Shown here one piece after another: positions 13,249-35,424 of a DNA stretch of 64,000 bases (the stretch's first letter is position 1; each line of letters opens with the position of its first letter). The stretch lies in assembly GCF_007750855.1 (NCBI RefSeq), contig NZ_CP036291.1:1054001-1118000 (forward strand), in the 5' to 3' direction. Source of the DNA: Pirellulimonas nuda. GTDB taxonomy: Bacteria; Planctomycetota; Planctomycetia; Pirellulales; Lacipirellulaceae. The notes under the pieces are model-generated. The model was not told the DNA's origin, searched no databases, and saw nothing but the letters and a program-made list of their open reading frames with translations. Position numbers and translations under genes: made by a program.

Positions 13249-13257
<9 letters not shown>
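13231..13257 (+). other. 5' arm of the 23S processing stem
   Basis: This pairs along all 27 nt, with two G-U pairs, with 16060-16086. The stem brings the ends of pre-23S together, the usual substrate of RNase III. Confidence 0.8.
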
Positions 13258-16059
<2,802 letters not shown>

Positions 16060-16068
<9 letters not shown>

Positions 16069-16086
16069 CATTGATCAAACGCTCTT
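16060..16086 (+). other. 3' arm of the 23S processing stem
   Basis: The complement of 13231-13257; together they form the 27-bp stem that closes pre-23S. Confidence 0.8.
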
Positions 16087-16250
16087 GGTTTGATCCCATC
16101 CCCAACCCGTCTTCGCCCGAAGACGACGTTGCGGCTGAGATCGCTAAGAACTGATTGAGCAATCCACTCTTGCAACACCAGCCACTTTACAGTGGCGTCA
16201 AACATTCACATCCAGCCTGGGTCGCACCTGCGACTCGGCTCGCGATCAAG

Positions 16251-16282
16251 CCCGCCCGGGCCTACCGGCCCGGCGGGTTTCT
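16251..16282 (+). terminator. terminator-like hairpin between 23S and 5S
   Basis: The stem CCCGCCCGGGCC / GGCCCGGCGGG (one bulged C) with a TACC loop is followed by TTTCTT, directly abutting the 5S 5' end. It has the look of an intrinsic terminator but sits inside the rRNA unit, so it may instead be a processing or attenuation element overcome by boxA antitermination. Confidence 0.5.
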
Positions 16283-16390
16283 TCTGGCGACCATATCCGA
16301 AAGGAAACACCTGTCCCCATTCCGAACACAGTAGTTAAGCTTTCGGAGCCGATGATAGTGCCTACCAGTGCGAAAGTAGGTATCGCCAGA
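16283..16390 (+). rRNA. rrf: 5S ribosomal RNA
   Basis: 108 nt. The ends pair (TCTGGCGA with TCGCCAGA), and the conserved loop ATTCCGAACACAGTAGTTAAG is present. It follows 23S after about 214 bp and precedes a strong intrinsic terminator. Confidence 0.96.
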
Positions 16391-16398
16391 TTTTATGA

Positions 16399-24069: not shown

Positions 24070-24096
24070 CTGGAAATTGTGGCTTTCCACCGACAG

Positions 24097-24181
24097 TGGC
24101 CGAGGCGGGAGTCGAACCCGCATGGTGGTTGCCCACCGACGGATTTTAAGTCCGTTGCGTCTGCCATTTCGCCACTCGGCC
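24097..24181 (-). tRNA. tRNA-Leu (UAA)
   Basis: 85 nt on the minus strand. The acceptor stem is GGCCGAG / CTCGGCC with discriminator A. The anticodon arm ACGGACTTAAAATCCGT holds TAA. A long variable arm (CGGTGGGCAACCACC) marks a class II tRNA, and the T arm is GCGGGTTCGACTCCCGC. The 3' CCA is not encoded. Confidence 0.97.
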
Positions 24182-32638: not shown

Positions 32639-34183
32639 TTAGATTGCCCCGGGGCGTTCGCCGTCCAGCGGTTGGCCGCTGCCAACGGCCACCCGGTTTA
32701 CGGCCGCCAGGAACGCCAGCACGCTGGCCTCAACGGTGTCGGTGGAGACGCCCCGTCCGCGGTAGAGCTTGCCGCCGTGCTCGGCCTCGATGGTCGTTTC
32801 TCCCTGAGCGTCTTTGCCCCGGGTCACGCTGCGGACGCGGAAGTCGCGCACCACGATGCTGGTGCCGGTGATCTTCTCGATGGCGTTGAACAGGGCGTCG
32901 AGCGGGCCGTCGCCGCCGAAGAAGGTGTCGGAGACAGACTCGTCGGCGCGGCTGAGGGTGACGGTCGAGCTGGGCGTCTGGCCCGAGGCGGCGCGCACCT
33001 CGTAGCTCACCAGGCTCCAGGCGTCGTCCTCGGAGCCGATGCGCTTGTCGATCAGCGCGGCGATGTCGGCGTCAAAAATCTCCTTCTTGCGGTCGGCCAG
33101 CTTCTTGAAGTCGTCGAACACGCGGTCGAGCTCTTCGCTGGAGACGTGGTAGCCGAGCGCCTTGGCGCGGTCGGCCAGGGCGGCGCGGCCGCTGTGCTTG
33201 CCGAGCACCAGGTCGGTCTTGCTAACGCCGACGTCCTCGGGGCGCATGATCTCGTAGGTGCTGCGTTGCTTGAGCATGCCGTCTTGGTGGATGCCCGCCT
33301 CGTGGGCGAAGGCGTTGCGGCCGACGATCGCCTTGTTGCGTTGCACCTGCATGCCGGTGATGCCCGAGACCAGCCGGCTGGTGGGCGCCAGGCGGGTGGT
33401 TTCGATGCCGGTGTCGCAGTTGTAGAAGTCGCCACGGGTGCGGAGCGCCATCACGATTTCTTCGAGCGCGCAGTTTCCGGCCCGCTCGCCGATGCCATTG
33501 ATGGTGCACTCCACCTGTCCGGCGCCGTGCTCGACGGCCGCCAGGCTGTTCGCCACGGCGAGTCCCAGGTCGTTGTGGCAGTGGACGCTAACCACCGCGC
33601 GGTCGAGGTTGGGGACCCGATCGACGAGCGTCTGGATGACCCCCCCCATGTGCGCCGGCGTGGCGTAGCCGACCGTGTCTGGGATGTTCACCGTGGTGGC
33701 GCCCGCGGCGATAGCGGCTTCGACCACCTGGCAGAGGAAGTCCGGCTCGGTGCGCGCGGCGTCTTCGGGAGAGAACTCGATGTTGTCGCAGTACTTTTTG
33801 GCGCGTCTCACGCCGGCGGCGGCGCGTGCGATGATCTCTTCCTTGCCCATCTTCAGCTTGAACTCGCGGTGGATGGCGCTGGTGGCCAGGAACACATGGA
33901 TCCGGGGCCTCTCGGCGCCGGTGAGCGCCTCCCACGCGCGGTCGATGTCTTTGTCGTTGCAGCGCGCCAGCCCGCAGATCTGCACGCCGCGGACCACGCC
34001 GGCGATGGCGCGGACCGCCTCGAAGTCTCCGGGAGAGGCGATGGGGAACCCCGCCTCGATCACGTCGACCCCCAGGTCGACCAACGCCTGGGCGACCTCC
34101 AGCTTCTCGTTGAGGTCCATGCTGGCCCCGGGAGACTGTTCGCCGTCGCGGAGCGTGGTGTCGAAGATGGTGATGCGGCGCAT
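32639..34183 (-). CDS. leuA: 2-isopropylmalate synthase
   Basis: 514 residues. It condenses acetyl-CoA with 2-oxoisovalerate, the first committed step of leucine synthesis. The N-terminal TIM barrel begins ITIFDTTLRDGEQSPG (metal and substrate site), with VSVHCHNDLGLAVANSLAAV supplying the HxH metal ligands and NGIGERAGNCALEEIVMAL the second signature. The C-terminal part from about 390 is the leucine-binding regulatory domain. Transcription appears to begin near 34419 and to pass through a leucine-rich leader peptide and an attenuator before the start at 34183. leuB lies 27 kb away at 60977. Confidence 0.96.
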   Translation of the reverse strand: MRRITIFDTTLRDGEQSPGASMDLNEKLEVAQALVDLGVDVIEAGFPIASPGDFEAVRAIAGVVRGVQICGLARCNDKDIDRAWEALTGAERPRIHVFLATSAIHREFKLKMGKEEIIARAAAGVRRAKKYCDNIEFSPEDAARTEPDFLCQVVEAAIAAGATTVNIPDTVGYATPAHMGGVIQTLVDRVPNLDRAVVSVHCHNDLGLAVANSLAAVEHGAGQVECTINGIGERAGNCALEEIVMALRTRGDFYNCDTGIETTRLAPTSRLVSGITGMQVQRNKAIVGRNAFAHEAGIHQDGMLKQRSTYEIMRPEDVGVSKTDLVLGKHSGRAALADRAKALGYHVSSEELDRVFDDFKKLADRKKEIFDADIAALIDKRIGSEDDAWSLVSYEVRAASGQTPSSTVTLSRADESVSDTFFGGDGPLDALFNAIEKITGTSIVVRDFRVRSVTRGKDAQGETTIEAEHGGKLYRGRGVSTDTVEASVLAFLAAVNRVAVGSGQPLDGERPGAI

Positions 34184-34278: not shown

Positions 34279-34314
34279 AAAAAACCCTGAGGCCTTGGGG
34301 AAGGCCTCAGGGTT
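34279..34314 (-). terminator. leucine attenuator terminator hairpin
   Basis: A perfect 14-bp stem (34283-34296 with 34301-34314; AACCCTGAGGCCTT and its complement) with a 4-nt loop and six U on the minus-strand RNA (34284 down to 34279). It lies between the leucine-rich leader ORF and leuA, about 95 bp before the leuA start, so it must be read through for leuA expression. Confidence 0.9.
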
Positions 34315-34344
34315 TTGGTGTTTCGCGAGTCTTGCCGACAGCGC

Positions 34345-34407
34345 CTACCGTCCCAGGGCCTTTCGGGAAAGGCTGACTAGTAGCAGGCATAGTAGCAAGA
34401 TCGGCAT
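34345..34407 (-). CDS. leuL: leu operon leader peptide
   Basis: A 20-residue ORF with eight Leu (residues 4-6, 8-10, 13 and 18), four of them encoded by CTA, a codon that looks rare in this GC-rich sequence. A good Shine-Dalgarno (AAAGGAA) lies about 6 nt before the ATG, and a promoter just upstream. The 3' half overlaps a small hairpin (34358-34373) whose right side (34352-34364, AAGGCCCTGGG in RNA sense) can alternatively pair with the left arm of the terminator. This is the classical attenuation layout: ribosome stalling on Leu codons when Leu-tRNA is scarce would favour read-through into leuA. Confidence 0.85.
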   Translation of the reverse strand: MPILLLCLLLVSLSRKALGR

Positions 34408-34425
34408 CGTTGTTCCTTTGGAGTC

Positions 34426-34454
34426 GTTGTAAGGGACGGGAAGCAGCGGGTCAA
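34426..34454 (-). promoter_or_regulatory. putative sigma70 promoter of leuL-leuA
   Basis: On the minus strand: TTGACC (34454-34449), a 17-nt spacer and TACAAC (34431-34426). The predicted RNA start near 34419 leaves a short leader carrying only the Shine-Dalgarno before leuL. Confidence 0.7.
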
Positions 34455-34614
34455 GGTTCGCCGGCCGGGGTGAAAAAGTCGCTCTTGGCGGGTGGGGCCG
34501 AGAGGGGCAAAATTGGGGCTTCCTTGGCCAAATCAACCGTTCCAGCCCACCGCGATGCCCGGCGAACACCTAGACCTGTCGAGCGATGCAGGGCCCCCAC
34601 GCGGGGCAAACCGG

Positions 34615-34788
34615 ATGACCGGACGCCCGTTTATCGGGGTCCGGTTCGCCTGTTGCGGGGTCTATACCCGGGTCTACCGCAACCAGGCCGCCACGGCCTA
34701 CGAGGGACGCTGCCCCCGCTGCGGCAAGGCCGTGAAGTTCCCCATCGGCCCCGGCGGCACCGGCGAGCGGTTCTTCGAGGCCTTCTGA
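34615..34788 (+). CDS. small zinc-ribbon protein
   Basis: 57 residues. A Cys pair at the front (FACCGVY) and CPRCGK suggest a zinc ribbon. The pattern FIGVRF-CC-VYTRVY-N...Y.G.CPRCG is one I associate with a short conserved planctomycete protein of unknown function. An in-frame ATG at 34555 would add 20 residues; the conserved part starts near the second Met. Monocistronic and divergent from leuL. Confidence 0.65.
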   Translation: MTGRPFIGVRFACCGVYTRVYRNQAATAYEGRCPRCGKAVKFPIGPGGTGERFFEAF

Positions 34789-34915: not shown

Positions 34916-34974
34916 AGGGGGCTTTGTCCTATGCTGCTCTCGTCTCTCCCGAACCCTGCTTCCGGCCCCGCCCC

Positions 34975-35424
34975 ATGCTGCTTGCCGCCGTTGCTGCCCA
35001 CCCGATTGTCCACCTTAACGCCTCGCTCAACGCGGCCGCGGCGGTGCTGCTGATGGTGGGCTGGGTGCTAATCCGCCAGCGGAAGGAGCAGGCCCACAAG
35101 TGGGTGATGATCTCCGCGACCGTTGTTTCCTCGGTCTTCTTGGCGTGTTACCTCTACTACCACTACAACGTCGGCTCGGTGGCGTACGACGGGCCGGTGC
35201 GGCCCGTCTATTTCGCGATCCTCATCTCTCACGTGGTGCTGGCCGTGGCGGTGCCGCCGCTTGCGCTCACCACCATCTATCTTGGTCTCCGAGCCCTCGC
35301 CGGCTCAGAGGCCAGCCCCCGCTACCGCGCCAAGCACCGCCGGCTGGCCAGGTGGACGTTTCCGGTCTGGATGTACGTGTCGGTGACCGGGGTGATCGTC
35401 TACGTGATGCTCTACCACCTGTAG
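34975..35424 (+). CDS. DUF420 membrane protein
   Basis: 149 residues and four predicted membrane helices. His residues recur at helix ends (VHLNASLN, QAHKWVM, YYHYNVG, ISHVVLA, AKHRRLARWTFPVWMYVSVTG), the DUF420 pattern. DUF420 proteins are often linked to cytochrome oxidase assembly or electron transport; the His residues could bind haem or copper, but this is inference. The start MLLAAVAAHP is preferred over an upstream in-frame ATG at 34924 that lies in repeat-rich sequence. Confidence 0.82.
   Translation: MLLAAVAAHPIVHLNASLNAAAAVLLMVGWVLIRQRKEQAHKWVMISATVVSSVFLACYLYYHYNVGSVAYDGPVRPVYFAILISHVVLAVAVPPLALTTIYLGLRALAGSEASPRYRAKHRRLARWTFPVWMYVSVTGVIVYVMLYHL

Follow-up and report, generated by a model that had tools for sequence, protein, structure and literature searches.

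A predicted leucine attenuator upstream of leuA

The window analyzed here is a 64,000-nucleotide stretch of the Pirellulimonas nuda genome (contig NZ_CP036291.1, positions 1,054,001 to 1,118,000), and upstream of its leuA gene it very probably carries a leucine-responsive, ribosome-mediated transcription attenuator. A sequence-only reading had described a promoter, a Shine-Dalgarno, a leader peptide, a small hairpin, a competing segment and a terminator in this region, and we found all of them on the minus strand at approximately the positions it gave, with its counts correct. The features, in window coordinates, are as follows.

34449..34454, minus strand: -35 hexamer TTGACC, in a context (GAACCTTGACC) that is common to several genomes of the same family
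34426..34431, minus strand: -10 hexamer TACAAC, with a 17-nt spacer from the -35
34414..34419, minus strand: AAAGGA, a possible Shine-Dalgarno at or adjoining the predicted 5' end of the RNA, not kept in relatives
34345..34407, minus strand: leader open reading frame leuL, 20 amino acids (MPILLLCLLLVSLSRKALGR), ATG at 34407 and TAG at 34347-34345; Leu-rich leaders are kept in relatives
34358..34373, minus strand: 1:2 hairpin GCCUUUCCCGAAAGGC, in which segment 1 is 34373-34368
34351..34363, minus strand: segment 2, the antiterminator strand AAAGGCCCUGGGA (also written AAAGGCCCTGGGA), pairing with the terminator left arm at -15.5 kcal/mol
34301..34314, minus strand: segment 3, the terminator left arm AACCCUGAGGCCUU
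34283..34296, minus strand: segment 4, the terminator right arm AAGGCCUCAGGGUU
34279..34284, minus strand: U tract of the intrinsic terminator, six U, almost invariant in alignment A1 (described below)
32639..34183, minus strand: leuA, 2-isopropylmalate synthase (TIGR00973), start at 34183, the gene predicted to be regulated

Eight of the 20 leader residues are Leu, encoded by TTG CTA CTA CTG CTA CTA CTT CTG, so that four are on CTA, just as first read, and the Leu runs occupy codons 4-6 and 8-10. CTA had also been taken to be scarce in this DNA, and it is: it makes up 5.1% of the Leu codons in 33 window genes, and four or more of eight would be expected by chance with P ~4e-4. Across leaders from the same family, CUA accounts for 38% of Leu codons (46/122), versus about 1% in the leuA genes that they precede. 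The sole tRNA gene in the window is a tRNA-Leu with anticodon UAA (24096-24181, minus strand), which is not the tRNA expected for CUA.

The terminator, AACCCTGAGGCCTT-CCCC-AAGGCCTCAGGGTT at 34314-34283, has 12 GC-rich pairs, extended by A-U pairs formed with the U tract, and with the full tract (34314-34279) it folds at -25 kcal/mol. The RNA from 34430 to 34279 has a folding z of -6.2 relative to shuffles. We folded the window RNA in stages, holding the bases covered by a ribosome single-stranded and leaving segment 4 not yet made. A ribosome stalled at Leu codon 5, 6, 9 or 10 lets segment 2 pair with segment 3, one that has reached the stop codon blocks this 2:3 pairing, and in the ribosome-free RNA segment 2 is hidden within a long leader hairpin. 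When the RNA is full length, the terminator is thermodynamically favored in every ribosome state, so the switch must be kinetic, decided as the RNA emerges, as in known attenuators.

From the observed anatomy, the fitting staged folds, and the conservation and 3:4 and 2:3 covariation described below, we infer a start site, ribosome stalling, termination and a leucine response that would work as follows. RNA polymerase would start at about 34419, and a ribosome would begin the leader peptide immediately. When Leu-tRNA is ample, the ribosome would reach the stop codon and cover segment 2, the 3:4 hairpin would form, and transcription would end before leuA. When Leu-tRNA is scarce, the ribosome would stall at codons 4-10, where the Leu runs are rich in CUA, occupying segment 1 and leaving segment 2 free to pair with segment 3, so that the terminator could not form in time and leuA would be transcribed. 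If the leader is not translated at all, it would fold on itself, segment 2 would be hidden, and transcription would end.

Conservation in relatives

Leader and hairpin conservation upstream of leuA in related genomes had been proposed as the check on this element. We found leuA in 117 genomes of the order, 199 of the phylum and 80 named contigs, gathered the upstream DNA for a large part of these, and counted cases where a Leu-rich short open reading frame is followed by a strong terminator within 10-80 nt. This leader and terminator are kept in relatives: they precede leuA in all 16 genomes of the window's family, in 63 of 90 genomes of the order Pirellulales, and in nine of nine genomes from a second family within the class. 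In the Gemmataceae, about 24 of the 30 loci scanned have them (28 were located by motif). Dinucleotide shuffles of the Gemmataceae set gave no matches (0/240), and other shuffles gave one match in 348 at the loosest score and none at higher scores. We consider the predicted leuA leader attenuator to be real and ancient.

In the order, leuA is without the leader and terminator in all nine genomes of family f7 (0/9 with them) and in most of family f3 (1/6), and loss of the control or its replacement is possible there. One Gemmataceae match, L366 with a score of 4, was set aside as probably due to chance, its terminator being about 400 nt upstream of leuA. In the window's family, the same scan found no such leader in the upstream regions of ilvB and leuC, and no attenuator was found for trpE and hisG.

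Covariation and the position of the leader stop

Alignment A1 comprises 66 leaders. Two-sided changes occur at 10 of the 13 terminator pairs, 91% of cells are paired, and no shuffle or slid register does as well. For the antiterminator, which we defined as GGCCnTAGGGTT against AACCCygAGGCC, 78% of cells are paired, there are 39 cells with two-sided changes versus 20.7 in shuffles, and the score is best at slide 0; 386 of 500 shuffles have at least as many pairs with changes on both strands. Part of the antiterminator complementarity exists because segment 3 must serve both helices. Based on the alignment, we consider the covariation support to be strong for the terminator and moderate for the antiterminator. 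Across the 66 sequences, a short hairpin is seen repeatedly (mean z -1.09), its end lying within or beside the 5' half of segment 2. Its exact columns vary, and RNAalifold on the leader half found no common 1:2 fold, the hairpin being kept in place but not in columns. The sequence-only interpretation is supported: of its 1:2, 2:3 and 3:4 alternatives, 3:4 and 2:3 have compensatory changes, and for 1:2 there is the recurrent small hairpin ahead of segment 2.

The conserved terminator also bears on an alternative in which the leader acts through translational coupling, by reinitiation or by Rho loading, and not through an intrinsic terminator. A survey of leader genes that covers planctomycetes deals with reinitiation and not attenuation, and proposes that in many bacteria, planctomycetes among them, such genes help reinitiation at a spacing of 10-11 bp (PMC4833913). 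The stop of the leuA leader is 161 nt from leuA, far over that spacing, and the strong intrinsic terminator lies between them, so we find this explanation very hard to credit.

In most relatives, the leader stop UAG lies within segment 2 (GGCCnUAGGGUUCG; the strand is also given as GGCCnTAGGGTTCG), so that in these a terminating ribosome would sit exactly on segment 2. The window differs in that segment 2 is inside the leader open reading frame and the stop ends 6 nt beyond it. In genomes of the Blastopirellula marina type, CAG replaces the leader stop TAG of close relatives and the leader is four codons longer, with the pairing kept (L120/L123 versus L136/L140). The footprint of a ribosome extends about 15 nt upstream. 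With about 12 nt covered downstream (PMC4833913), these footprint sizes suggest that a ribosome positioned at the stop codon, in the window leader as in the Blastopirellula-type leaders, would still have segment 2 within its footprint.

Promoters and predicted leaderless leaders

The predicted RNA start at about 34419 is placed from the position of the promoter. It coincides with the Shine-Dalgarno itself, which is present in few relatives: the distance from the -10 to the leader ATG is 18 nt in the window, and the 5' UTR would be about 12 nt long, beginning with AAAGGA. A strict sigma-70 scan did not pick up this promoter, owing to the C at the last position of the -10. Of 93 leaders, 36 have a TTGAC-type promoter (spacing 16-18 nt) no more than 70 nt from their start, where 5.9 would be expected.

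These promoters, like the conservation and covariation, argue against an explanation in which the region is a plain 5' UTR containing the terminator of an upstream transcript and a short open reading frame that arose by chance. The terminator is strong on its own, and the leader frame stays open further upstream of the ATG, as such an explanation would have it. The plausible upstream genes (e.g. 34492-34788 and 34924-35424) are on the plus strand, however, so no minus-strand transcript seems to need ending there, and promoters near the leader start are well in excess of chance. We regard this explanation as highly improbable and favor the attenuator.

Ten of these leaders, spread over several families, have 6-7 nt between the end of the -10 box and the ATG, where 0.34 such leaders would be expected. 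With this spacing the leader would begin at the extreme 5' end of a leaderless mRNA. The predicted leaderless leader peptides upstream of leuA are those of L006, L008, L057, L058, L155, L157, L171, L185, L187 and L188. There is precedent for leaderless leader peptides in Streptomyces (PMC8079986), and the promoter-to-ATG spacing of the ten planctomycete leaders resembles the leaderless start in S. lividans.

A second predicted attenuator and other planctomycete leaders

We built a covariance model, R1, from the leuA leaders and searched it against the genome of P. nuda. The leuA leader scored 61 bits, and there was one other strong full-length match.

G000:C1:2190842-2190959 (about 443-560 of L320), plus strand: aromatic leader MSCNAWRFWCYFTSPVPGAGGCA (contains WRFWCYF) followed by a terminator, R1 match of 51.8 bits
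L320:638-1648: DAHP synthase downstream of the aromatic leader (TIGR01361 and PRK08673)

The amino acid of the leader thus fits the gene in both cases, with Leu before leuA and aromatic residues before DAHP synthase in the same genome. The ATG of the aromatic leader is 6 nt after a -10-like GATACT, a spacing that suggests a leaderless mRNA here as well. R1 matches below about 35 bits were mixed: they include some real leaders and many other terminators, and two are beside tRNA-like sequence. We counted weak matches only where the leader fitted its gene.

In a single-pass reading, we also noted other planctomycetes, including Gemmataceae, in which a DAHP synthase follows an aromatic-rich leader and a terminator (L321, L324, L325, L329, L330, L334, L371 and L372). 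Read in the same way, the citramalate synthase gene cimA follows an Ile/Val-rich leader and a terminator in two genomes (L328 and L370), where the leaders end in ARIIGIIIG and SVGVVIITIGPP. No Ile leader was seen at the cimA of the P. nuda genome.

This match between leader and gene is relevant to a further explanation, in which the leuA element would be a leucine- or protein-binding RNA of the kind suggested for the LEU element of Actinobacteria, with leader translation not needed and the open reading frame incidental. Folding without a ribosome does yield a stable leader structure, and mutations of leader codons in Streptomyces leuA did not behave as in classical attenuation (PMC1262725). 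What is conserved in the planctomycete leaders, however, is Leu codons in a shifting residue order, a stop at segment 2 and the 2:3/3:4 pairing, and not unpaired bases; the residue type follows the gene, with aromatic residues before DAHP synthase and Ile before cimA; and the enrichment of CUA would make no sense without translation. We therefore consider a binding element quite unlikely, and ribosome-mediated attenuation remains our preferred reading.

Comparison with known leaders

Leu attenuators are known in Proteobacteria. The leader of the enterobacterial leu operon (RF00512; E. coli leuL) encodes a Leu-rich peptide with rare CUA codons; its hairpins compete with one another, and an intrinsic terminator precedes leuA. 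The P. nuda element is like it in each of these respects. In contrast to E. coli leuL, which is 28 amino acids long, the planctomycete leaders are mostly 17-24 amino acids long, and in most relatives the stop is inside the antiterminator strand. It also differs from the enterobacterial arrangement in that leuC and ilvB are here far from leuA and have no such leader. The leuA leader did not match the Rfam covariance model for Leu_leader (RF00512), even at E up to 10, and no other relevant Rfam family was found for it at the gathering score or at E up to 10. No T-box was matched by Rfam in the window at the gathering score.

In Actinobacteria, the LEU element of leuA (PMC1262725) and leuL (S. 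lividans leuL1/leuL2, PMC8079986) likewise have a short leader with a Leu run before leuA. The build is different, since the actinobacterial leuA element has a pseudoknot, with a base stem joining the Leu codons to the Shine-Dalgarno of leuA, and no typical terminator, whereas planctomycete leuA has a strong conserved intrinsic terminator. In another phylum, Staphylococcus aureus is reported to regulate its synthesis of branched-chain amino acids through a Leu-rich attenuator peptide (PMC5794164), a likeness by description; that attenuator acts alongside the CodY repressor. The aroF leader of Corynebacterium glutamicum (PMC4046766) is aromatic (Phe-Tyr-Phe) and precedes a DAHP synthase, as does the second P. 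nuda element, although, by residue content, the latter has Trp, Phe and Tyr together.

The main text of a genome-wide survey of premature terminators (PMC2965389) does not mention planctomycetes or leuA. We found no published description of a planctomycete attenuator within the open-access literature, which is consistent with the sequence-only reading, where none was known. The mechanism, ribosome-mediated attenuation, is a known one, and it appears to be new for this phylum.

Implications for coupling in planctomycetes

Ribosome-mediated attenuation needs a ribosome close behind RNA polymerase, and it fails without coupling of transcription and translation. Planctomycetes, and Gemmata above all, have been claimed to hold the two processes apart in a nucleus-like compartment, a claim that is disputed; for Gemmata obscuriglobus such a separation was reported by Gottshall et al. 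2014 (cited in PMC6212462 and PMC5394234). Given that attenuators, which need coupling, are found in most of the sampled Gemmataceae and in their relatives, they are independent genomic evidence for coupling in this group. This evidence covers the Gemmataceae as a group and not G. obscuriglobus in particular.

On balance, we lean toward the broader view that attenuators with coupled ribosomes are an ancient and general mode of regulation in Planctomycetota, frequently on leaderless mRNAs, with Leu leaders serving leuA, Phe/Tyr/Trp leaders DAHP synthase and Ile leaders cimA, and that their conservation in Gemmataceae would show tight coupling, against the reported separation in Gemmata. The leuA leader is a ready reporter, with which the question of coupling becomes a simple reporter test. 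Regulation in this phylum is little known, and the attenuators offer a candidate mechanism for the control of leucine, aromatic and isoleucine synthesis.

Apart from the attenuator, we noted unlinked rRNA genes: the window has 23S and 5S rRNA genes at 13250-16391 on the plus strand and no 16S rRNA match.
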